NCBI GenBank assembly: GCA_021464245.1
Contig: JADCRB010000026.1
Span: forward strand, 3,324,187 to 3,388,186
Origin: Carallia brachiata
Lineage: Eukaryota; Streptophyta; Magnoliopsida; Malpighiales; Rhizophoraceae
DNA: 64,000 nt
Reading direction: 5' to 3'
Made by a program: the position numbers and the translations under genes. The notes under the pieces were generated by a model that was not told where the DNA came from, ran no database searches, and saw nothing but the letters and a program-made list of their open reading frames with translations. This document shows, piece by piece, positions 124 to 54,583 of this stretch (positions within the stretch are counted from its first letter, which is position 1; every line of letters starts with the position of its first letter).

Positions 124-1738
124 TTGGAGAATAAAATTTTGCAGCTGATCAGAGTCGTGGAGGAAAAAGATCAACAGATCGCTGCTCTCAAAGGAAAGGC
201 CCCGATCCAAGTTGATCCCGAGATCCGCGAGGAGCAACCATATCCACCCGGTTTCACTCCAGAAGCCACACCAGCCGACGTCTTCCCTGCAGAAAAGCGA
301 CCAGGTAGTTCTACACAGCTGCCACCCTCAAATTCTGTAGCTTCGCTATCTGTTCAACAATTGCAGGAAATGATAGCCAATACGATCCGACTGCAACAAG
401 CTACATCCTTCCAAGGATCACAGATGTACGTCAAACCGTACACCAGACGGATCGAAAGTCTCAACATGCCCTGGGCTACCAGCCGCCCAAATTTCAACAA
501 TTCAACGAACGAGGCGATCCCAAACAGCACATCGCCCACTTCGTTGAAACCTGCAACAACGCAGGGACTTATGGAGATCTCTTGGTGAAGCAGTTTGTAG
601 ACCGCTTTCACCTGGTTCAAAATCTTGAACCAGAATCGATCGACAGTTGGGAACAGCTACAACGAGTGTTTCTCAACAGATTTTTCAGCACTCGCAGAAC
701 GATAAGTATGATGGAGCTTACCAACACCAAACAAAGGAAAGGAGAGCCCGTTGTCGAATACATCAACAGATGGCGTGCCCTCAGCTTGGACTGCAAAGAT
801 CGCCTGACGGAGACTTCTGCCGTAGATGTGCATCCAGGGAATGCATTGGGAGCTGTTATACATCCTGCAGGGTGTCAAACCCCGAACTTTCGAAGAACTG
901 GCGACCCGCGCACATGATATGGAGATAAGCATCCAGACTTCCGGAGGCACGGTTCCCATCCAGTTGGACCAGCAAGGGGGCAGAAGGGAGATTAAGAAAC
1001 CCAACAGCTCCGGAAAAGGAAAAAAGTGATGACTGTTGAAGCCGCACCAGTAAAAGTGGGCGCCAAAGCTAAGGTAAATCCTCCGACCCAAATAACTCAG
1101 CCAAAACAACAGGAAAGGCGGAAGGTGACATTGCGAGAGTTGGAGCAGAAGCAGTATCCATTCCCCGACTCAGACGTCCCCGACATTCTTGACAACTCTT
1201 GGAGGCGAAGCTGATCGAACTCCCAGAGTGCAAGCGGCCGAATGAAAAGGATCGAGTCAGCGATCCGAGATTCTGCAAATATCACCGGATAGTAAGTCAT
1301 CCAACCGAGAAATGTTTCGTCCTGAAGGAGCTAATCATGAAGCTCAAAAGCCAGAATAAAATCATTCTGGACCAGGAAGGCATAACTCGCAAACCAGACC
1401 ACCATCACTTCAAAACCATCAGAAGAGTGACACACCGTAAGGAGGAGCCGCTCGACAACAAAAAGTCGACAACGGAGAAGGTATATGAAGCTCTCCAAAC
1501 CCTTCTCGCTAACCCTCAGCTGTTTATAGCTTTGCAATCAACAGAAGTGTGGCAAAATCAAGTCAGCAATACTCTCCAGACCTCAGCTGAATCACAGCCA
1601 TCAAATGATTCTAACTCAGCGGAGCAACAGACGGCCAAAATCACGTCGGATGTTACTCTGCTATCTCATTTTCAGATGAGGATCTCCTGCTGGGGTCCAA
1701 ACCCCACAATCGGCCGCTGTATGTATCAGGCTATGTGA
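124..1738 (+). pseudogene. Retrotransposon gag (broken frame)
   Basis: Gag is the structural protein that packages element RNA. The recognisable capsid-like block is near 580-930 (SIDSWEQLQRVFLNRF, MMELTNTKQRKGEPVVEYIN, then [19 protein letters not shown]). A Cys/His knuckle-like motif CKYHRIVSHPTEKCF follows at about 1273-1320. The N-terminal part (from 124) is a coiled-coil-like segment followed by a Pro-rich stretch, and no ATG opens that frame in the window, so the true start may be mutated or lie elsewhere. Frame changes occur near 474 (one base apparently missing in the CCC-TGGG run), near 830 and near 1200. All are small indels. The gene cannot make an intact Gag as read. Confidence 0.85.
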
Positions 1739-2616: not shown

Positions 2617-3885
2617 ATGGGTACGCTGCCGTCCACACATGGCGCTTCTCAAACATCACAGTCCCGACCTGGCTTAGGCTATCAGGAGAAGTCACCTGTG
2701 CGGATCACGCTAAAGAGCCGAAGCCGAGCAGCTGATGCACGTGCCATCACCACCACCACCAAACAAGACAGGCTTATCCAGTCAAACAAAGAAGGTGAAG
2801 TCAGAGGTCTGCATTTCATGTCACAATTAGCGAGGAGGCTGACCGACTCATCAGATGGTGAAGTGAAGGAGGCTCCCCCGGAACTTGAAGATGGTGGCCA
2901 AGCAACTGTTGATGAACTCAAGGAGGTCAATCTTGGCTCTCCGGAAGATCCTCGACCTACATTTGTAAGTGCTTTACTTACTGCAGAAGAAGAGCAAGAA
3001 TATGTTCAGGTATTAAGTCAATACAGGGACGTGTTCGCATGGAGTTACAAAGAAATGCCTGGACTTGACCCAAAAATTGCGGTGCATCGTCTAGCAGTAA
3101 AGAAGGGTGTTCGTTCTGTCAAGCAGCCACAACGACGGTTCCGCCCGGAACTCATTCCACAAATCGAGGAGGAGGTGAACAAGCTGATCAATGCTGGCTT
3201 CATCCGAGAGGTCACCTACCCAACGTGGATTGCCAACATTGTCCCGGTAAGAAAAAGAATGGACAGTTGAGGGTATGTGTTGATTTTCGAGATCTTAACA
3301 AGGCCTGCCCGAAAGATGACTTTCCGTTGCCCATAACGGAGATCACAGTCGATGCAACAACGGGTCACGAAGCATTGTCCTTCATGGATGGTTCTTCAGG
3401 CTATAACCAAATCAGAATGGCACCAGAAGACGAGGAGTTGACAGCATTCCGCACCCCAAAAGGTATATACTGCTACAAAGTTATGCCGTTTGGATTAAAA
3501 ATGCTGGCGCCACTTATCAACGTGCTATGCAAAAAATTTTTGATGACATGCTGCACAAGATTGTAGAATGTTATGTTGATGACTTAGTTGTAAAGACTAA
3601 GAAGCGCAAAGACCACCTCGAGGATCTCAAGACAGTGTTCGAAAGACTTCGGAGGCATCAGCTCAAAATGAACCCTCTCAAGTGCGCATTCGGTGTCACA
3701 TCAGGAAAGTTTCTTGGGTTCGTGGTGCGCCATCGTGGAATCGAAGTTGATCAGTCAAAGGTTGAGGCAATTCAAAAGATGCCTGAACCTAAAAACCTGC
3801 ACGAGCTGCGAAGTTTACAAGGAAAGCTAAGCCTACATTCGCCGTTTTATTTCCAACTTAGCTGGGAGATGTCAACCTTTCCATC
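2617..3885 (+). pseudogene. Retrotransposon reverse transcriptase (broken frame)
   Basis: Reverse transcriptase of the Tat type. Motifs seen in order are RRFRPELIPQIEEEV (about 3133), GFIREVTYPTWIANIV (about 3196), CVDFRDLNKACPKD (about 3278), SFMDGSSGYNQIRMAPED (about 3380), FRTPKGIYCYKVMPFGLK (about 3450) and the catalytic YVDD box (about 3572), then the thumb/connection region. Breaks occur near 3247 and 3497, each where an A run is one base shorter than the conserved frame needs, and near 3826, where one base is extra. Catalytic aspartates are retained in separate frames, so the enzyme is not encoded by one continuous frame. Confidence 0.9.
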
Positions 3886-3887
3886 GG

Positions 3888-4275
3888 TTGATGAAGAAGA
3901 ATATCAACTTCGAGTGGGACGAAGCTTGCAGCAAAGCCTTTGAGAGCATAAAGAAGTACATTTCCAATCCACCAGTCCTGGGAGCTCCAATTCAAGGAAA
4001 GTCGTTGATTCTCTACATTGCAGCACAGGAAAGATCTTTGGGAGCCTTGCTTGCACAGGAAAATGAGCAGGGAAAGGAAGTTGCTCTGTACTACTTGAGC
4101 AGAACACTAAATGGTCCGGAGCTGAGTTATTCGCCCATTGAAAAGACATGTCTAGCACTGTTCTTTGCCATTGACAAGCTGAGGCACTACATGCAAGCTC
4201 ACACGGTACGTCTCATTGCCAGAGCTGATCCTGTCAAATATCTTATCTAGACCAATCTTGTCAGGACGACTTGCC
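3888..4275 (+). pseudogene. Retrotransposon RNase H domain 1 (gypsy type)
   Basis: This is the RNase H that normally follows gypsy RT. It starts at the connection motif NFEWDEACSKAFESIK and continues through SLGALLAQENEQGKE, YYLSRTLNGPELSYSPIEKTC and the ADPVKYL region. A one-base excess near 4245 ends the frame just before the SRPILSGRLAKWA motif, which is read in the neighbouring frame. In the Tat lineage this domain is usually catalytically degenerate because the second RNase H took over; here I only see that the fold motifs are present. Confidence 0.85.
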
Positions 4276-4277
4276 AA

Positions 4278-4830
4278 GTGGGCAGTAATCCTACAAAGCT
4301 ACGACATTGTCTACGTGCCTCAAAAAGCAGTCAAAGGACAAGCTCTAGAGACTTCCTTGCAGATCACCCTGTTCCGTCAGATTGGGAGTTCACAGATGAT
4401 CTTCCAGATGAAGAGGTCTTTTACATTGAGACACTACCACCATGGACGATGTTCTTTGATGGTGCAGCAAGGCGTGATGGTGCTGGTGCCGGCATAGTGT
4501 TTGTCACTCCTCAACGACAAATACTACCATATGCTATCATTCTCGGTGAGTTATGTTCAAATAATGTTGCTGAATACCAGGCTTTGATCATTGGTCTTCA
4601 AATGGCTGTCGATATGAAGATTCCAACTATAGAAGTCCATGGAGATTCCCAGCTCGTCATCAACCAACTTACAGGATTGTATGACGTGAAGAAAGAGGAC
4701 CTTGCGCCTTACCATCAACGTGCTCGACAGCTAATGGATGAATTTGAAAGCATCACCTTGGAGCATGTGCCTCGACGAGAAAACTCAGGCAGACGCGTTG
4801 GCTAACCTGGCCACTCTCTTGCAAAGTCAG
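4278..4830 (+). pseudogene. Retrotransposon RNase H domain 2 (plant/archaeal type)
   Basis: Second RNase H, the hallmark of Tat elements. The catalytic residues are visible: Asp in MFFDGAARRDGAG (about 4449), Glu in NNVAEYQALIIGLQMA (about 4564) and Asp in EVHGDSQLVINQL (about 4635). The end motif HVPRRENS is followed by a two-base loss near 4785, after which the expected ADALANLAT tail is in another frame. The linker upstream contains a one-base loss near 4346. Family knowledge says this domain was acquired from a host-like RNase H and is active in autonomous members. Confidence 0.88.
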
Positions 4831-4871: not shown

Positions 4872-6182
4872 GTGCCACAGAAGGATGATGAAGAAACTAC
4901 AGCAGCCAACGCTGTATCTGTACGTCTCGCGGAGGACGGAGATTGGCGCCAACCAATCATTGACTACCTACAGCACGGGAAGCTGCCCGAAGATCGTCGT
5001 CATAAGACAGAAATTCAACGACGAGCTCCCCGCTTCATATATCTCAAGGATGCTCTGTATCGAAGGTCTTTTGATGGAGTTTTCTTCGCTGCCTAGCAAT
5101 GAAGAGGCAAAACAGCTCTCACTGAAGCACATTCAGGTGTTTGTGGCGGACATCAATCAGGGCCTAAGTTGCACTTCCAACTCAGAAGGATGGGATACTA
5201 CTGGCCAACCATGGTACGTGATTCAATTGAGTTTGCTAAAACCTGTCAAGCTTGTCAATTTCATGCGAATTACATACATCAACCACCGGAGCCACTGCAT
5301 CCAACTGTCTCATCCTGGCCCTTTGAAGCTTGGGGTCTCGACTTAGTGGGGCCCTTGCCAAAGTCATCCCTGGTCACCTGTACATCCTCGCAGCAACACT
5401 ACTTCTCAAAATGGGCTGAAGCCATTCCACTTAGAGAGGTAAAGAAGGAGCATGTTGCCAATTTCATCCGGACTCAGCTGATCTATCGCTATGGAGTCCC
5501 TCGATTCATCATCACTGATAATGGTAAGCAGTTCTACAACAGCTTGATTGACAAGCTCTGCGAGAAGTTCAAGTTCAAGCAGTACAAGTCATCCATGTAC
5601 AATGCCCCAGCAAATGGCTTGGCCGAAGCATTCAACAAGACCTTATGCAACCTGTTGCGGAAGGTAGTCTCTAAATCCAAAAGAGATTGGCATGACAGAA
5701 TTCCGGAGGCATTATGGGCGTATCGTACAACTTACCGGACTCCAACACAGGCGACGCCATACTCACTTGTCTACGGTGTCGAAGCAATACTGCCGTTGGA
5801 AACACAGATTCCATCCCTGCGCATGGCTGTTCTGGAAGGACTCACACAGGAGGAGAATGCTCGCCTACGTCTGGATGAGTTAGAAGCTCTCGATGAAAGG
5901 AGGCTCGAAGCACAACAGCAACTTGAGTGCTACCAAGCCCGGCTCACCAACACGTTCAACCGCAGGGTCCGCCCTCGATCTTTTCAAGTTGGAGACCTTG
6001 TTCTTGCAGTGCGACGGCCCATCAACATGAAGCATCAGTTTGGGGACAAGCTTACTTCCAAATGGGACGGGCCATACCTAGTGCAGGAGGCCTACACTCA
6101 CAACGCTTACATGCTGTCAGACCAAGAAGGCGTTCGAATCGGCCCAATCAATGGTAAATTTCTGAAACAGTATTATGTGTAA
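4872..6182 (+). pseudogene. Retrotransposon integrase (broken frame)
   Basis: Integrase inserts the cDNA copy into the host genome. The N-terminal zinc-binding part ends with CQACQFHANY (about 5244-5273). The core carries GLDLVGPLP (Asp 1, about 5335), TDNGKQFYN (Asp 2, about 5514) and GLAEAFNKTL (Glu, about 5620). The C-terminal barrel contains FQVGDLVLAVRRP and KWDGPYLVQEAY. Most of it, 5169-6182, is one open frame of 337 codons, but the segment around 5370-5400 is read out of frame between two compensating indels, and the HHCC region before 5169 is frameshifted. There is no chromodomain, as expected for Tat and unlike the relic at 14.9 kb. Confidence 0.9.
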
Positions 6183-6640
6183 ATATATTTAAAAAAAATC
6201 ATCAAAAAAATCATCAAAAAAAATTAAAAAAAAACAGAGAAGAAAAAAAATAGAAAAAAAAAAGTCAAAAAAAAAAGTTCGGAAGTCCCGATCTGAAAGT
6301 CCAAGCGAAAACCCAAATCCAAAAGTCCAAAACCCAAACACTCAACTCAAATCCAAAAATTCAAATCCAAGCACAAACACTTGAGCCCAATTCAGAAAAC
6401 TCAAAGCCCAATTCAAAAAACCTGAAAACTAAGTCTAGACTCAAAACCCAAACACTCAACCCAAATTCAAAAATCCAAATCCAAAACCCAAACACTCGAC
6501 CCAAATTCAAAAATCCAAGTCTGGAAGTCCAAACACTCAACCCAAATCCAATCCAAAGCCCAAAACCCAAAAATTTCAAGTTTCAGACACAGTCCAGAAC
6601 CCAAGTTCAGAATCCAATCCAACTCTTGGCCCGCATGAGT
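6183..6640 (+). repeat. A-rich then CA-rich low-complexity tract downstream of integrase
   Basis: After the integrase stop the sequence becomes A-runs (6190-6275), then a degenerate tandem array built on CCCAAACACTCAACCC with a period of about 41 bases, clearest around 6444 and 6485. There are no G-rich stretches and no coding motif on the plus strand. The open frame on the minus strand (6361-6579) has a Phe/Leu/Gly/Trp-only composition caused by the repeat, so I do not call it a gene. Confidence 0.75.
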
Positions 6641-6657
6641 ATAAACTGTGAACGACC

Positions 6658-6672
6658 CAAAAATATAAAAGC
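6658..6672 (+). promoter_or_regulatory. TATA-like box ahead of the WOX-like ORF
   Basis: The sequence AAAATATAAAAGCG lies about 90 bases upstream of the ATG at 6760, a normal distance for a plant core promoter with a short leader. It is the only TATA-like sequence in the GC-neutral stretch before the ORF. This is inference from sequence and spacing only. Confidence 0.4.
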
Positions 6673-6759
6673 GACGGAGGGTTTGAGTCTGAAATTCAGC
6701 ATCAGTCTCAACCGATCTTCACCACATACCAAGATCTTTGCTCCTCTGCCACAAGAAAG

Positions 6760-7155
6760 ATGGAACAAGTTGCAGAACCTCAAGATAAGGGAGAAGAAAG
6801 GTCACCCCGCACAAGGTGGCAACCGACCATGGCACAACTGCAAATTTTGGAGGAAGTCTTCCACAACAATGGAGGTATTATTCCTAATGCATCTCAAATT
6901 TACCAACTTGTCTCACGATTGCGCCCACTCGAGGCAATCGAAGGAAAAAATGTGTTTTATTGGTTCTAGAATCAGAGAAGCAGGAAGAAACCAGCACTGA
7001 AAACTGCTTTTTCCAAAGAACAGTCTGTCGTTCTGATAGTAGATCCCACCGGTACAGCTTCACCCTCAAATGAAGCAGGTCCGAGTTCTTCCACTGCAAT
7101 GGTCTCACCACGGTATGTTCATCAAAGCCGTAGCCCATGGGAGCATGCATGCTAG
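6760..7155 (+). pseudogene. WUSCHEL-related (WOX) homeodomain ORF captured in the retrotransposon, one internal TAG
   Basis: The ORF starts with an ATG in good context (AAAGATGG). Residues 13-70 are a WOX homeodomain: TRWQPTMAQLQILEEVF (helix 1), a loop of WUS-clade length, IPNASQIYQLVSRLRPL (helix 2) and IEGKNVFYWF (helix 3 start). IEGKNVFYWFQN is the WUS-clade signature. The next codon is TAG (6967-6969) where the family has Gln; one C-to-T change explains it. The frame stays open after the TAG for 61 codons (NQRSRKKPALKTAF, then a Ser/Pro-rich tail) to a TAG at 7153. WOX proteins are nuclear transcription factors of meristems. This one lies inside an LTR element, between integrase and LTR, with no visible intron, so it is probably a captured processed copy. 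No WUS-box (TLxLFP) is seen in the short tail. It is either dead, makes a truncated peptide, or needs readthrough. Confidence 0.8.
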
Positions 7156-7360
7156 TCTTGGTGGTCTTACGGAGTCAGCCAATGATTCATCCCTCCTAGG
7201 TACTTAAGTCTAGGAGGAATTTTTCTAGCAGAAAGGAGTCATTCCGGCAAAATTTTGCCTCTTTTTCCAGAATATTCCGGCAGCATCAACCAGCCGGAAA
7301 GCGACGTCAACATCATCGGCCCACCAGACGAGGCCGAGCTTGACTTGGAGATAAGGTGCA

Positions 7361-7448
7361 ACGACTTTGGCAGCACACGGTAACGACTTCTGCAGCACAC
7401 GGCAACGACTTCTGCAACACACGGTAACGACTTTCGTGACGCGCGTCA
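7361..7448 (+). repeat. 22-bp tandem repeat, about four units
   Basis: Units start at 7361, 7383, 7405 and 7427 and share ACGACTTCTGCAGCACACGG with few changes; the fourth is diverged after its first eight bases. The array lies in the accessory segment between the homeodomain ORF and the second small ORF. A protein-coding role is not evident. Confidence 0.85.
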
Positions 7449-7617
7449 GCCGCTGCCTCTTTTGTCTCTTATGCAGGAAAGGGACGTAGATGGCCCTACT
7501 CGATTCTGCATATCTTCTTTTGACTTTTCAAAAAAAAAAACTCTTTATTATTTGTATATATATCCTGCATTCTCGAGTTGTAATACTCACCCCTCAGCTC
7601 TTCTTTCTCAAAAGAAA

Positions 7618-7938
7618 ATGGCTAGTCTCTGCACTTGTCTCAGAAAGTTCTTCGATCAAGAAGTTGGAGGCGTAGGAGCTAAGAAAAGAAGGAGTAGTCT
7701 TCCTCGAGGGATCCCTAAAAGCCCTCGAAATTCAGTCTCCAACGCCATCGGTGTCATGGAGTTCCAACTACTCTCCTTAGTTCACATCTACCACAGAGGG
7801 ATGAGAAACTGCAATCATCCTAATCTTCCTTTGGATGTGGCGACGTACAGGAAGTTCCAACTACTCTCCTTACGTCGAAGCAGACTTAGGAATCATCACT
7901 ACAGTCAGTCTCTCTGTGTGCCGGTCTTGAAGTTCTGA
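7618..7938 (+). CDS. Unrecognised small ORF in the retrotransposon accessory segment
   Basis: A 106-codon frame begins with ATG in the context GAAAATGG and reads MASLCTCLRKFFDQEVGG, then a basic stretch (AKKRRSSLPRGIPKSPRN) resembling a nuclear localisation signal. A TATA-like run, TTTGTATATATATCC, lies at about 7551-7565, some 55 bases upstream. The same frame is open further upstream to 7462, but the ATG at 7618 fits the TATA spacing. Within it, the phrase TTCCAACTACTCTCCTTA occurs twice about 91 bases apart, near 7764 and 7855. I recognise no domain. It could be spurious; the paired TATA-plus-ATG layout, mirrored by the homeodomain ORF, is the reason for listing it. Confidence 0.3.
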   Translation: MASLCTCLRKFFDQEVGGVGAKKRRSSLPRGIPKSPRNSVSNAIGVMEFQLLSLVHIYHRGMRNCNHPNLPLDVATYRKFQLLSLRRSRLRNHHYSQSLCVPVLKF

Positions 7939-8265
7939 GGTACTGGGCCTTCCTCTTGGGGAGGTTCAAGTTCTTTGCCTACCGGATCATCCTCACCAGA
8001 GCTTTGGAATTTCAAAGAACCTTTGCCAGCCTTTGCTAACTATGAAAGCTCGAATGCACCTGGAGTTAGAATGTCAATTTTTATGTTGGCTGGGCTGCTA
8101 ACTTCCTCAAGATCATATCGGTTTCCATTGTGATCCAACAACAGTTGGGTTAGTCGGAGATAAAAGATTTCAACATTCAATGTTCGTCAGGACATCTCAA
8201 GTTTCAAACTGGACTTCAAGACTCGGTGCGGATCACGTCTGTAAAGTTCTTCCTTACCAACCCTT

Positions 8266-8279
8266 GAAGTGGGGGCATT
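8266..8279 (+). other. Polypurine tract of the retrotransposon
   Basis: GAAGTGGGGGCATT directly precedes the LTR start TGTAAAC. It is the expected plus-strand primer site for reverse transcription. The purine run is interrupted by CATT next to the LTR, as often seen in Tat elements. Confidence 0.65.
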
Positions 8280-8323
8280 TGTAAACAAAGAAAAAGAAAA
8301 AAATAAAAAAAAGGAAGTCAATA

Positions 8324-8358
8324 GCCGGCGTTGCCAATTTTGAATTGGCAACGCCGGC
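8324..8358. promoter_or_regulatory. Perfect palindrome 1 in LTR U3 (16-bp arms, 3-base loop)
   Basis: The left arm is GCCGGCGTTGCCAATT, the loop TTG, and the right arm the exact reverse complement. It is GC-rich in an A-rich setting. It could extrude as a hairpin in DNA or RNA, or bind a dimeric factor. It lies about 65 bases upstream of the TATA box. Confidence 0.95.
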
Positions 8359-8385
8359 CCAAAGAAAATCAAAAAAAAAAAAAGA

Positions 8386-8420
8386 TTCCTTTCCCATGTG
8401 AACATCACATGGGAAAGGAA
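8386..8420. promoter_or_regulatory. Perfect palindrome 2 in LTR U3 (16-bp arms, 3-base loop)
   Basis: The left arm is TTCCTTTCCCATGTGA, the loop ACA, and the right arm its exact reverse complement. It ends directly against the TATA element (CCCTATAAAC). It has the same 16-3-16 geometry as the palindrome 27 bases upstream but an unrelated sequence. The CATGTGA/TCACATG cores resemble E-box type sites; that is inference. Confidence 0.95.
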
Positions 8421-8432
8421 CCCTATAAACAG
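8421..8432 (+). promoter_or_regulatory. LTR TATA box
   Basis: CCCTATAAACAG follows palindrome 2 immediately. It is the best TATA match in the LTR, and its position about 140 bases into the LTR is plausible for a U3 promoter. Confidence 0.6.
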
Positions 8433-9108
8433 GCCACTGCCCCTCAGTTCAAAACATATTCAGCAAATCTGTAAACAGAAAAATTCTGAAAATTTGAGAG
8501 AAAAAGAAAATTTTGAAAATCTCTCAAGAAAATTTCTCATTTTCTTACGTGCTTTTACTCTGCAGTATACTCTCCTAACTCCTTTTTGAGAGATATTTTA
8601 GGGGTAAACCCCAAAAAATTTGCTGTTTCCATTTCTAAAATTATTTTTAGGTTTATATTCTCGGATCGCTCTAGATCTGAATTTTTGAGAATATAGATCT
8701 GAAAATATCAAATTACTACAAATCTGACTGGGATTAAGCCTCATACGGCCCGCAGCAAAATCCAGACAGCTCATCCGAGAACAAGTCCTTTCGACCCTCG
8801 GTGAAATTAAGTCAGATCGGTTCAGATCAGGTCTCTGCGGTTCTTAACCGTAGTCAAAACGTCCAAATCAGATCCGGTTTCAGTCTATCCAGTTCAAGAT
8901 AAAGCTGTGGAAATTATTTCTGTCAAGATCAAGCTCGTGCAGCCCTTGACGGAGTCAAAAAAGGAACACTAATCGGAGGATCTACGAAAATCGACCCCAC
9001 GTAAATTTCTTTTTATTACAATTTTTTTTATTGTAATTTGTTTTTGTATTTTCGAGTTTAATTGTTTTAAGTTCGAAATTTACCAGTTACATACCCATAC
9101 AAGAAATT

Positions 9109-9178
9109 TCACATTTGCCCCAGCTGCAATTCCGAAATCCGAGCAACCTGACCCTTGATGGCTGCGACTTTAAACAGC
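9109..9178 (-). pseudogene. Possible orphan terminal exon of an unidentified gene
   Basis: On the minus strand an acceptor-like GGTATTTACAG is followed by a frame reading LFKVAAIKGQVARISELQL and ending in TGA after 22 codons. The composition is coding-like and unlike the AT-rich surroundings. The LTR border is only about 17 bases past the stop. No upstream exon is recognisable at higher coordinates, where MITEs occupy the sequence, so this may be a remnant. I do not recognise the family. Confidence 0.3.
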
Positions 9179-14869: not shown

Positions 14870-15300
14870 TCACGTGTCTCCATCCATAACGCCAAATTCT
14901 GATATGTACCAACGTTCCCTTCTCAAAATCCTTCTCTTCAAGGGCGAAGGAAGGAAATTTCTTCTAGAAGTCATACAAAAGCTACAGCTGGCGAGAAAAG
15001 CAGGATGATCCAACCATTGAACAAGGCATTGAGTAGCTGCCTGATTACGTTTCTTGACCATTCGACGATCTAAGATGGCTACAAGTGCAGCAAATTGAGC
15101 AGCATTAGGAAATGAAACTAGCAATTCAGTGATTACAACAACATCTTGTCCCACGTTTTGTTTTAATTGTGAAACATGAAATGTAGGATATATTTTGGAA
15201 TGAGCTGAGAAAGCCAAGGTATATGCCACTTTTCCAACTCTCGCCAGAATTTGGAATGTACCATAAAAACAAGGGCCTTTATAAAGTTGAGATAAATTGA
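14870..15300 (-). pseudogene. Gypsy chromovirus integrase C-terminus/chromodomain relic
   Basis: The minus strand reads QLYKGPCFYGTFQILARVG, KVAYTLAFSAHSKIYPTFH, VSQLKQNVGQD and, after a divergent linker, ILDRRMVKKRNQAATQCL, VQWLDHPA. This is the end of the integrase barrel and the chromodomain-like tail of plant chromoviruses. It is a different family from the Tat element at the left of the window. Upstream integrase sequence (higher coordinates) is replaced by block B sequence, so only a fragment remains. Confidence 0.75.
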
Positions 15301-21416: not shown

Positions 21417-21684
21417 ACAATAAGTACATCAACTAAAATAAATTGAAATTTAAAATAAATTTAGTCTAACACTCTCACATGTAACACTCAGTAATAATAA
21501 AATTGAAAATGAATTTGACTCAACATTCTCTTATATGTAATGGCTTACACACAATAAGTACATCAACTAAAATAAATTGAAATTTAAAATAAATTTAGTC
21601 TAACACTCTCACACGTAACACTCAGTAATAATAAAATTGAAAATGAATTTGACTCAACATTCTCCTATATGTAATGGCTTACAC
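21417..21684 (+). repeat. 134-bp tandem duplication
   Basis: Units 21417-21550 and 21551-21684 are nearly identical, with about two substitutions (ACATGT/ACACGT and TTATAT/CTATAT). Block B shows one unit-like copy near 15415-15555, so this duplication is recent and local to C. Confidence 0.9.
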
Positions 21685-53023: not shown

Positions 53024-54583
53024 TTAGGGCCTCCATGCACTAGCCCACACAACCGGCTGGTCCTTCCAGCACAAGAATATACCACCATCCGCGCACTGCG
53101 TCATGGACCAGCAGCCTTCCTGATACCTCCTCAACAAGGCGCGTACATCATCACACACCTCATCGCTGAACAAAACAGGGCTAAACCCGCACGCATGCAG
53201 TCGCCCCGACCAGCGCGTGGCAGTTTCCCGCCGTTCGATGGAATCGGACGGAGGACATGCCACCAAGTCAACTATGGCCCGCCCTGCACCCCTTTCGAGC
53301 ATCAACCGTTCATTGCTGGTTCTTGAAAAGCTCTCTTCCAATGACTCAAAATAAACCCTAAACCATCTCAAGCATTCTTCGAAACCCTTAACGAAATCCA
53401 ACCCATCAGCACCCACATCAAGATCAGCTTCTTCTTCAACGACCGTGATGATCCTAGGCTGCAACCTCCCAAAACTCGAAATTACATAGTCTCGGAGATT
53501 GGAAACAGAAGTGATCGAATGTAAAGCTCCGACACAGTTTATGGCTAACGCTTCATCGTCTTTGATACCCAATTCAGAAAAATTCAATTCGCATAAGTCT
53601 CCATTGTGATGTATAACATTGAATTTGAAAGGGACCCCCATGAGCCTCGCGAATTTTTCCATTCTGTTTCCAATTTCTTTCATTACTCTTTGAACTGTGG
53701 CTAATCCTCCTCCTCCGCCTTCGTTACTTGGACCGCTTGTCTTTGTGGTCACCACAGTGGTTAGTCTCAAGTGTGGCGTCTCGTCGGTGCGGGTGGCTAA
53801 GGCTTCGAGCAAAGTAGGCCATTGGGTGCAATAAGTGTTGCTAAAATCAATGATATGCAATTTGCTTTCACCGTCAAATGCTTCCATGATGGCTCCATTA
53901 CAAGAAACGTGACCAAAAGTAGTCCAAGGGCTCACCTCTTGGAACTTCAGCACCATTTTTCTTGTCGACTCGAAAGAGCAGATTTTCTCCGAAGCAGATG
54001 CTAGAGTCCGGTAACATCTGTCCCCCGAGTCCGTCATGCGGCTGAACAAAGCTTGGAGAAAGTAGAAAGCAAGCTTTTGGTCTGTGTCACCGTAAGGAGA
54101 GCCGAGTTCGTTGAGCATCCACATCAACTGCTGGACACGAGCGCTGTTTTTATCCGCGATGGCGCGGGCGGTTTCCAGGAGGATGTCGGAGGCCCACTTG
54201 CCTGAGAATTCAAAGTTCAGGTCACGATGAGAAGGGGAGAAAGACAAGTCAGTGGATTCCGCGGCATGGTGAGCTGTTGGGGTACTGCTGGTGTTAGTGG
54301 TGGTAGTGGTGGGAGTCGTAGCAGTTGTGTATTGCTGTTGTAGCTGTTGTTGTTGGTGATGATGATAAGGATAATACTGTCTGGAAGAGGACGAAGAGAA
54401 GTCTTCTTCATCCATGAAAAAGTTGAAGCATTCTTCGTCTTCTTCTTGTTGGTAGTGATGGTGGTGGTGGTGGTGGTGGAAATTGTTCTGTCTGGAGGAT
54501 CTAGAGCTGCTGGAGGTTCTGCTGGTAGAGTTGAAAGATTGATCAGATTGTTGGAAACTAATCAGCCTAAACGAAGTATCCAT
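53024..54583 (-). CDS. SHR: GRAS transcription factor SHORT-ROOT
   Basis: Intronless, 519 residues, intact. The N-terminus [16 protein letters not shown] and the motif [17 protein letters not shown] are SHR-specific. Low-complexity His (HHHHHHHH), Gln and Thr runs follow. The GRAS domain starts near residue 125 ([20 protein letters not shown], first Leu-heptad), then the VHIID-type motif [15 protein letters not shown], the second Leu-rich region ([20 protein letters not shown]), PFYRE-like [11 protein letters not shown] and the terminal SAW ([10 protein letters not shown]). SHR moves from stele to endodermis and with SCR controls radial patterning (family knowledge). A TATA box, ATATATAAAAAG on the minus strand at about 54788-54799, sits about 205 bases upstream. 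The Arabidopsis SHR locus is on another chromosome, so this gene interrupts the conserved order. Confidence 0.96.

Follow-up and report, generated by a model that had tools for sequence, protein, structure and literature searches.

The locus studied here lies near the start of a 64,000-nucleotide stretch of Carallia brachiata DNA (hereafter the window; positions are counted from its first letter), and it raises the question of what a gene for a WUSCHEL (WUS)-type homeodomain protein does inside a retrotransposon. Extra open reading frames (ORFs) are common in plant LTR retrotransposons and mostly unexplained. The present one encodes a recognisable developmental regulator, the normal job of which is the upkeep of the cells ancestral to plant gametes. 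We regard the identity of this cargo as a WUS-like gene, and its placement in the element, as practically certain. The fuller reading that we prefer, namely that a high-copy Tat family carries a captured WUS-like gene behind its integrase and that this gene encodes a predicted small nuclear repressor, has in our judgement an even chance of being correct.

The gene and its carrier element in the window

The window begins within a + strand element of the Tat type (Ty3/gypsy), the 5′ LTR of which lies outside the window (Table 1). An additional RNase H (aRH) stands between the RNase H (RH) of the reverse transcriptase (RT) and the integrase, which is the angiosperm Tat arrangement according to the excerpted text of PMC6317226. 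The gag-pol frames of this copy are broken in several places. The WUS-like gene occupies the interval between the integrase and the polypurine tract (PPT) that precedes the 3′ LTR, as the original prediction had it, and the TATA-like box announced upstream of the ATG is present as well.

Table 1. Features of the carrier element and of its WUS-like gene (window coordinates).
Feature	Position	Strand	Evidence
gag piece, frame broken	582..917	+	PF03732 Retrotrans_gag, E 3.2e-10
Reverse transcriptase, two overlapping frames	3225..3940	+	PF00078, E 5.6e-14 and 3.8e-12
RNase H of RT	3888..4250	+	PF17919, E 4.9e-24; PF17917, E 1.9e-18
Additional RNase H (aRH), after RH and before integrase	4278..4805	+	PF13456 RVT_3, E 6.3e-22; PF00075, E 4.7e-06
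Integrase	5169..6182	+	PF00665, E 5e-06; PF17921, E 5.8e-05; both slightly under Pfam cut-offs
Degenerate 40-bp tandem repeats, integrase-gene interval	6315..6571	+	TRF, 6.6 copies
TATA box TATAAAA of possible internal promoter, 96 bases ahead of ATG	6664..6670	+	Sequence
Frame of the WUS-like gene, from its ATG to its last stop, with further stops at codons 70, 132 and 142	6760..7383	+	Sequence; open counterparts in other copies
Homeodomain, codons 17-78, cut in helix 3 by TAG at 6967-6969 (codon 70)	6808..6993	+	PF00046; PDB WUSCHEL/STENOFOLIA; AlphaFold model of an open copy and Foldseek search
Second in-frame stop, TAG, codon 132	7153..7155	+	Sequence
Third in-frame stop, TGA, codon 142	7183..7185	+	Sequence
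WUS-box-like stretch	7252..7275	+	Likened to WUS motif TLPLFPMH (PMC7214502, excerpt)
Degraded EAR-like stretch	7336..7353	+	Likened to EAR-like motif of WUS (PMC7214502, excerpt)
22-bp tandem repeats, which overlap the last part of the gene frame	7360..7433	+	TRF, 3.4 copies
Polypurine tract GAAGTGGGGGCA	8266..8277	+	Sequence
3′ LTR, TG...CA, starts TGTAAAC	8280..9091 (right end approximate)	+	Sequence; right end (~9091) placed where the match to one other copy stops

The WOX-type homeodomain that had been recognised from the sequence alone proved to be real. The frame up to the stop in helix 3 (6760-6966) matches the Pfam Homeodomain profile PF00046 with an E-value of 3.4e-07, and reading this stop as X gives a match of 6.7e-11 over codons 17-77, from which it follows that the domain goes on in frame beyond the stop. 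The alignment spreads 53 residues over 47 profile positions, as befits a WOX-type homeodomain with enlarged loops. At E ≤ 10, its sole matches in the PDB are WUSCHEL (6ry3, 3.3e-14), to which it aligns without gaps, and STENOFOLIA (6wig, 1.3e-11). The frame itself had been described as open over 131 codons and as ending at 7155, and neither point held: a TAG occurs at codon 70, inside helix 3, and the TAG at 7155 is codon 132 of a longer frame, which reaches 7383 and takes in the WUS-box-like and EAR-like stretches. With three in-frame stops the window copy is a pseudogene, and since its frame is broken it is unable to act as the repressor proposed below.

The region between pol and the 3′ LTR measures about 2.1 kb here, versus 2.9-6.6 kb in the published excerpt on the Retand lineage. 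The interval 6180-9120 has 42 stop-to-stop stretches, nine of which (five of the nine antisense) were scanned against Pfam along with one nested frame. They yielded neither TRP28 (PF04195) nor any credible domain other than the homeodomain, the one further match being non-significant (E 0.18). A second frame of 106 codons, starting MASLCTCLRKFF in a strong ATG context, lies at 7618-7938 (+) behind a TATATATA stretch near 7554; it has no Pfam or NCBIfam match, and a similar frame can be read in copy L008.

Elsewhere in the window, the segment 12093-25031 contains several blocks in two or three copies each, most of them spaced by 4-6 kb, with ~60-96% identity; the pattern resembles that of a tandemly duplicated host locus. 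A 134-bp unit at 21417-21684 is duplicated head to tail with 99% identity. A small integrase SH3-type remnant at 14870-15229 (-; PF24626, E 4.3e-04, under the Pfam cut-off) perhaps belongs to another retroelement. An open GRAS-family gene of 519 codons occupies 53024-54583 (-; PF03514, E 4.9e-105).

Copies in the host genome

A degenerate EGKNVFYWF pattern occurs at 567 places (267 forward, 300 reverse) in the 337,529,591 bases (337.5 Mb) of the host genome that were searched, and at none in the reversed control. This count of 567 versus 0, together with the E-values given above, shows that the homeodomain is not a chance match. At least one of 100 listed places (C40:2417635) is a host WOX gene, so that the elements number a little under 567. 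A query with the homeodomain returned 1567 first-look candidates, the best 150 of which were scored and are all 94-100% identical to it. Of these best 150 matches to the homeodomain protein, 60 copies were read over 3.4 kb each; they make up a non-random sample.

The homeodomain is open in 58 of the 60 copies, and TATAAA stands at -93 to -96 in 58 as well. An integrase tail is found within 1.3 kb upstream in 50/60 and LTR/PPT homology downstream in 60/60, and 54/60 have a PPT-like motif no more than 2.1 kb downstream of the ATG. The gene is thus cargo between the integrase and the 3′ LTR, as predicted. Its presence at the same place in other copies disposes of the two outcomes that had been named as fatal to this claim, i.e. 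other copies devoid of the segment, or a host exon brought in by nested insertion.

Open frames of 203-212 codons are present in 26/60 other copies. Their WUS-box reads TLPLFPEY in 18 of the 26, its last two residues being unlike those of TLPLFPMH, and their EAR stretch reads VELDLEL, a C-terminal LxLxL motif, in 24. Across the whole sample, the homeodomain shares one frame with a WUS-box (pattern [TI]LxLFxE) in 31/60 copies and with an EAR motif (ELDLEL) in 25/60; all three occur in one open frame in 24/60, and the other 36 fail on at least one count.

Seven LTR pairs could be compared, with indels not counted. The mismatches in aligned columns are 9/440 (L011) and 6/166 (L009) for autonomous-type copies, and 7/966 (L012), 12/878 (L013), 4/550 (L045), 6/772 (L071) and 7/536 (L025) for the others. 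As the aligned parts of these seven pairs differ by only ~0.7-3.6%, the insertions are young and the amplification is recent. A protein collection gave six candidate relatives, none at E ≤ 0.001, and a set of viral contigs gave none; both seem near plant-free and are uninformative on other plants.

Carriers devoid of integrase

The integrase tail is absent from ten of the 60 copies, and five of these were traced further upstream. L013, L045 and L071 show LTR homology ~1.2-1.6 kb ahead of the gene, followed by tandem repeats and the gene; their upstream parts match none of the gag/pol proteins of the window, apart from 30 residues of integrase in L045 and L071. L026, the same copy as L012, has a pair of LTRs and matches no integrase, and L025 has an LTR and gag. 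All five are non-autonomous elements in which the gene is still present. The upstream LTRs of L013, L045 and L071 match the window LTR over 126-214 bases only, at 78-81%. Between 48 autonomous-type and eight non-autonomous copies (four omitted), the mean identity is 96.7% over the 139 bases ahead of the ATG and 97.6% over codons 1-80. Because the LTRs diverge while this TATA-plus-gene cassette stays near-identical, the cassette travels in more than one architecture.

Besides, L012, L013, L045, L071 and L073-L076 can be listed as non-autonomous relatives with the WUS-like cassette and without pol, and the LTR of L012 contains internal repeats with an offset of ~47 bases.

Likeness of the encoded protein to WUS and to host WOX proteins

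The open copy L019 matches WUSCHEL (5.5e-18) and STENOFOLIA (1.2e-15) in the PDB, the next match being the human homeobox protein HESX1 (0.1). An AlphaFold model of one natural open copy, made with 11 natural relatives, has three predicted helices, with a pLDDT of 84-88 over residues 21-70; averaged over the protein, pLDDT is 51.9, and confidence is low in the C-terminal part. Foldseek returned 11 matches at E ≤ 0.001, all of them WUS or STENOFOLIA homeodomains, with WUS homeodomains at the top.

When the genome was queried with WUS, WUS-clade places ranked above the element copies. The homeodomains of the top seven were read, the eighth place (C108:2463573) being left out; they were taken to belong to host genes from their own sequence, leaving their flanks aside. 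The element homeodomains are 46-55% identical to these seven and 51% identical to Arabidopsis WUS, and the seven are 63-98% identical to one another. The suggestion of a long independent evolution inside elements fits these values, though part of the divergence may have preceded the capture. A homeodomain tree (13 rows, 64 columns, unrooted, no outgroup) joins the element copies on a single long branch without a firm position.

The element protein has the one-residue insertion in helix 1 that marks WUS proper: it aligns without gaps to WUS and to two host WUS-type homeodomains, and the residue is missing from the five other host homeodomains and from STENOFOLIA. In the excerpted text of PMC7203112, this insertion (Y54) is found among WOX proteins in WUS only. 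The equivalents of WUS R38, W39, Q89, N90 and R94 are invariant in 12/12 aligned open copies. The arm residues T35 and S36 of WUS (numbering from the alignment) are P and R in the element protein. Arginine or lysine at these positions has been linked to reading the adenine of TAAT (PMC7203112, excerpt), and this link, applied to the P, R arm, suggests that the binding preference of the element protein may be broader or shifted as compared with WUS. Open copies read NVFYWFQNR, a few NVFYWFQNQ, in place of the NVFYWFQNH signature; according to the excerpt of PMC6788696, NVFYWFQNH is the signature of the modern clade and NVFYWFQNR that of the intermediate WOX clade. As the modern signature is lacking, we label the protein WUS-like rather than an orthodox member: judging from its sequence, it is WUS-like and most likely WUS-derived, and not a regular modern-clade member.

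Substitution patterns and possible selection on the gene

Homeodomain codons 17-69 show a pN/pS of 0.057 (58 copies), which is not proof of selection, because the copies were ranked by homeodomain similarity. A rough Poisson simulation indicates that taking the best 150 of 1567 cuts nonsynonymous counts two- to four-fold. Codons 70-80, the sole part of the homeodomain outside the query, give a pN/pS of 0.226 (11 codons), and the integrase tail, which was not used in the ranking, gives 0.058 (16 ungapped copies spanning the stretch; 31/60 gave ungapped matches). In a codon model restricted to the 26 fully open frames (ten unique homeodomain rows), maximum likelihood gives the homeodomain an omega of 0.112 and the C-terminal part one of ~0.99 (counting ratio 0.73), so the latter looks like neutrally evolving sequence. 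Within it, the EAR codons have a pN of 0.009 versus a pS of 0.061 (26 open frames), and the WUS-box, with a pN of 0.094 versus 0.057 in the rest of the C-terminal part, has no extra conservation; its sample includes L059, which has a local frameshift in this region. Although about half of its residues differ from the host homologues read, the protein keeps its predicted fold, its contact residues, the WUS-box and the EAR motif, and this the ranking does not explain.

What the gene may do for the element

In the mechanism that we propose, a separate short mRNA would start at the internal TATA box in meristem cells, and the element protein would enter the nucleus and bind TGAA-type, possibly also TAAT-type, sites via its WUS-type homeodomain. 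By analogy with WUS-clade proteins, it would repress the genes there by recruiting the host co-repressor TOPLESS (TPL). WUS-clade repression operates via TPL, and mutating the WUS-box and EAR motif together in HDL, a WUS homologue, abolishes its contact with TPL (PMC6305195, excerpt). The altered gene control in shoot stem cells would then favour the element in its passage to the next generation, since plant gametes descend from these cells. The excerpt of PMC7560203 states that Arabidopsis shoot stem cells give rise to gametes, and that in day-7 samples 59 of the 62 differing TEs had higher levels in stem cells than in the cells around them; the step from this anatomy to a function of the element is one that we infer. 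Taken as a whole, the proposed mechanism has slightly less than an even chance in our estimation. Its furthest-reaching form, that a retrotransposon's miniature WUS with its own promoter, present in hundreds of copies and kept even by enzyme-less elements, steers stem-cell or germline-precursor expression to the element's advantage, is put forward tentatively, as possible and rather doubtful.

Other readings deserve to be weighed against this one. The gene might be a WUS-type sequence captured long ago and devoid of function, its uniformity resulting from recent amplification from few sources. This is what the C-terminal omega of ~1, the lack of special conservation of the WUS-box, the 36/60 copies without at least one motif in frame, the ~0.7-3.6% difference between LTRs in the seven pairs and the similarity-ranked origin of the homeodomain constraint would lead one to expect. 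The predicted fold and the base-contact residues are kept, yet about half of the homeodomain residues differ from the seven host homologues, and neutral drift hardly allows this unless the divergence is older than the capture, which counts against a functionless passenger. So do the conserved EAR codons and the keeping of the cassette without pol in two non-autonomous architectures, and we consider this reading possible, at well under an even chance.

Alternatively, acting much as a retroviral transactivator does, the protein might bind the LTR or internal promoter of its own element and tune its transcription; any effect on host genes would then not be under selection. TGAA, a preferred WUS core, occurs seven times in 6560-6760 (both strands) versus 1.7 expected from block shuffling, and regulatory roles have been proposed for the accessory proteins of Retand elements (PMC11963269, excerpt). 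However, this excess is one of 24 region-motif tests against a block-shuffled control and the stretch concerned is rich in repeats; pol, too, contains more TGAA than expected (37 versus 25.4, P 0.010), and the LTR has no significant excess of any tested motif, with TAAT below expectation. Self-regulation alone appears unlikely. That a host WOX exon or pseudogene came to lie in one element by nested insertion is next to inconceivable: it is ruled out by the integrase tail upstream in 50/60 copies and the LTR homology downstream in 60/60, and by the host homeodomains, of which the seven that were read reach 55% identity at most; nothing was found in its favour. Our preferred reading remains that of a captured WUS-like gene encoding a predicted small nuclear repressor. 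The cargo being a stem-cell regulator, a possible manipulation of host cell fate or stem-cell expression by a plant transposon becomes directly testable.

Novelty and comparison with known systems

No element-encoded WUS or WOX gene was found in the open-access literature, as covered by titles and the starts of abstracts (subscription papers, preprints and supplements being outside this scope), and the novelty of a WUS-like cargo gene in a plant retrotransposon is provisional. Surveys of WOX genes in cotton (PMC5501002) and Brassica napus (PMC6482515), in their excerpted parts, considered TEs near WOX genes. For genome annotation our findings carry a warning: hundreds of element-encoded WUS-like frames could pass for WOX genes.

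Similarly to the carrier described here, the orchid Gypsy elements with an m6A-demethylase ORF (PMC9289625, excerpt) form a dual-RNase H family in which a host-type domain has become fixed in many copies; theirs is an RNA-modifying enzyme, not a transcription factor. In its screen of 121 genomes for extra domains, this report lists B3, from Aegilops, as a transcription-factor domain, and its main text, taken without the supplements, contains no match for 'homeo', 'WUS' or 'WOX'. With the Tat (Ogre/Retand-type) Ty3/gypsy elements that bear extra ORFs, the window element shares gag, RT, RH, aRH and integrase, followed by a tandem-repeat region and an extra ORF ahead of the PPT and 3′ LTR. It differs from them in its extra ORF, which runs in the sense direction and codes for a WUS-type homeodomain protein, whereas in Retand clusters, according to the excerpt of PMC11963269, no sense ORF (>600 bp) of the pol-3′LTR region encodes a known domain and the antisense TRP28 is nearly universal.

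With WUS and the WUS-clade WOX proteins, the element protein has in common the homeodomain fold, the WUS spacing with its helix-1 insertion, the base-contact residues, and WUS-box-like and C-terminal EAR-like motifs; the corresponding motifs of WUS are TLPLFPMH and ASLELTLN (PMC7214502, excerpt). A C-terminal EAR-like LxLxL motif is a feature of WUS, WOX5 and WOX7. The element protein differs from the WUS clade in being transposon-encoded, in its ~50% identity over the homeodomain and in having NVFYWFQNR in place of NVFYWFQNH, and from WUS in the flank of the recognition helix (RRSRKK versus HKARER) and in the length of its open copies (203-212 residues versus 291 in Arabidopsis WUS; PMC7214502, excerpt). 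A counterpart in design is MiniMe, an engineered minimal WUS consisting only of homeodomain, WUS-box and EAR, with which it shares the three modules and the shortened middle part; MiniMe is a laboratory construct (PMC7214502, excerpt), whereas the element protein is a natural one, known here from its sequence.
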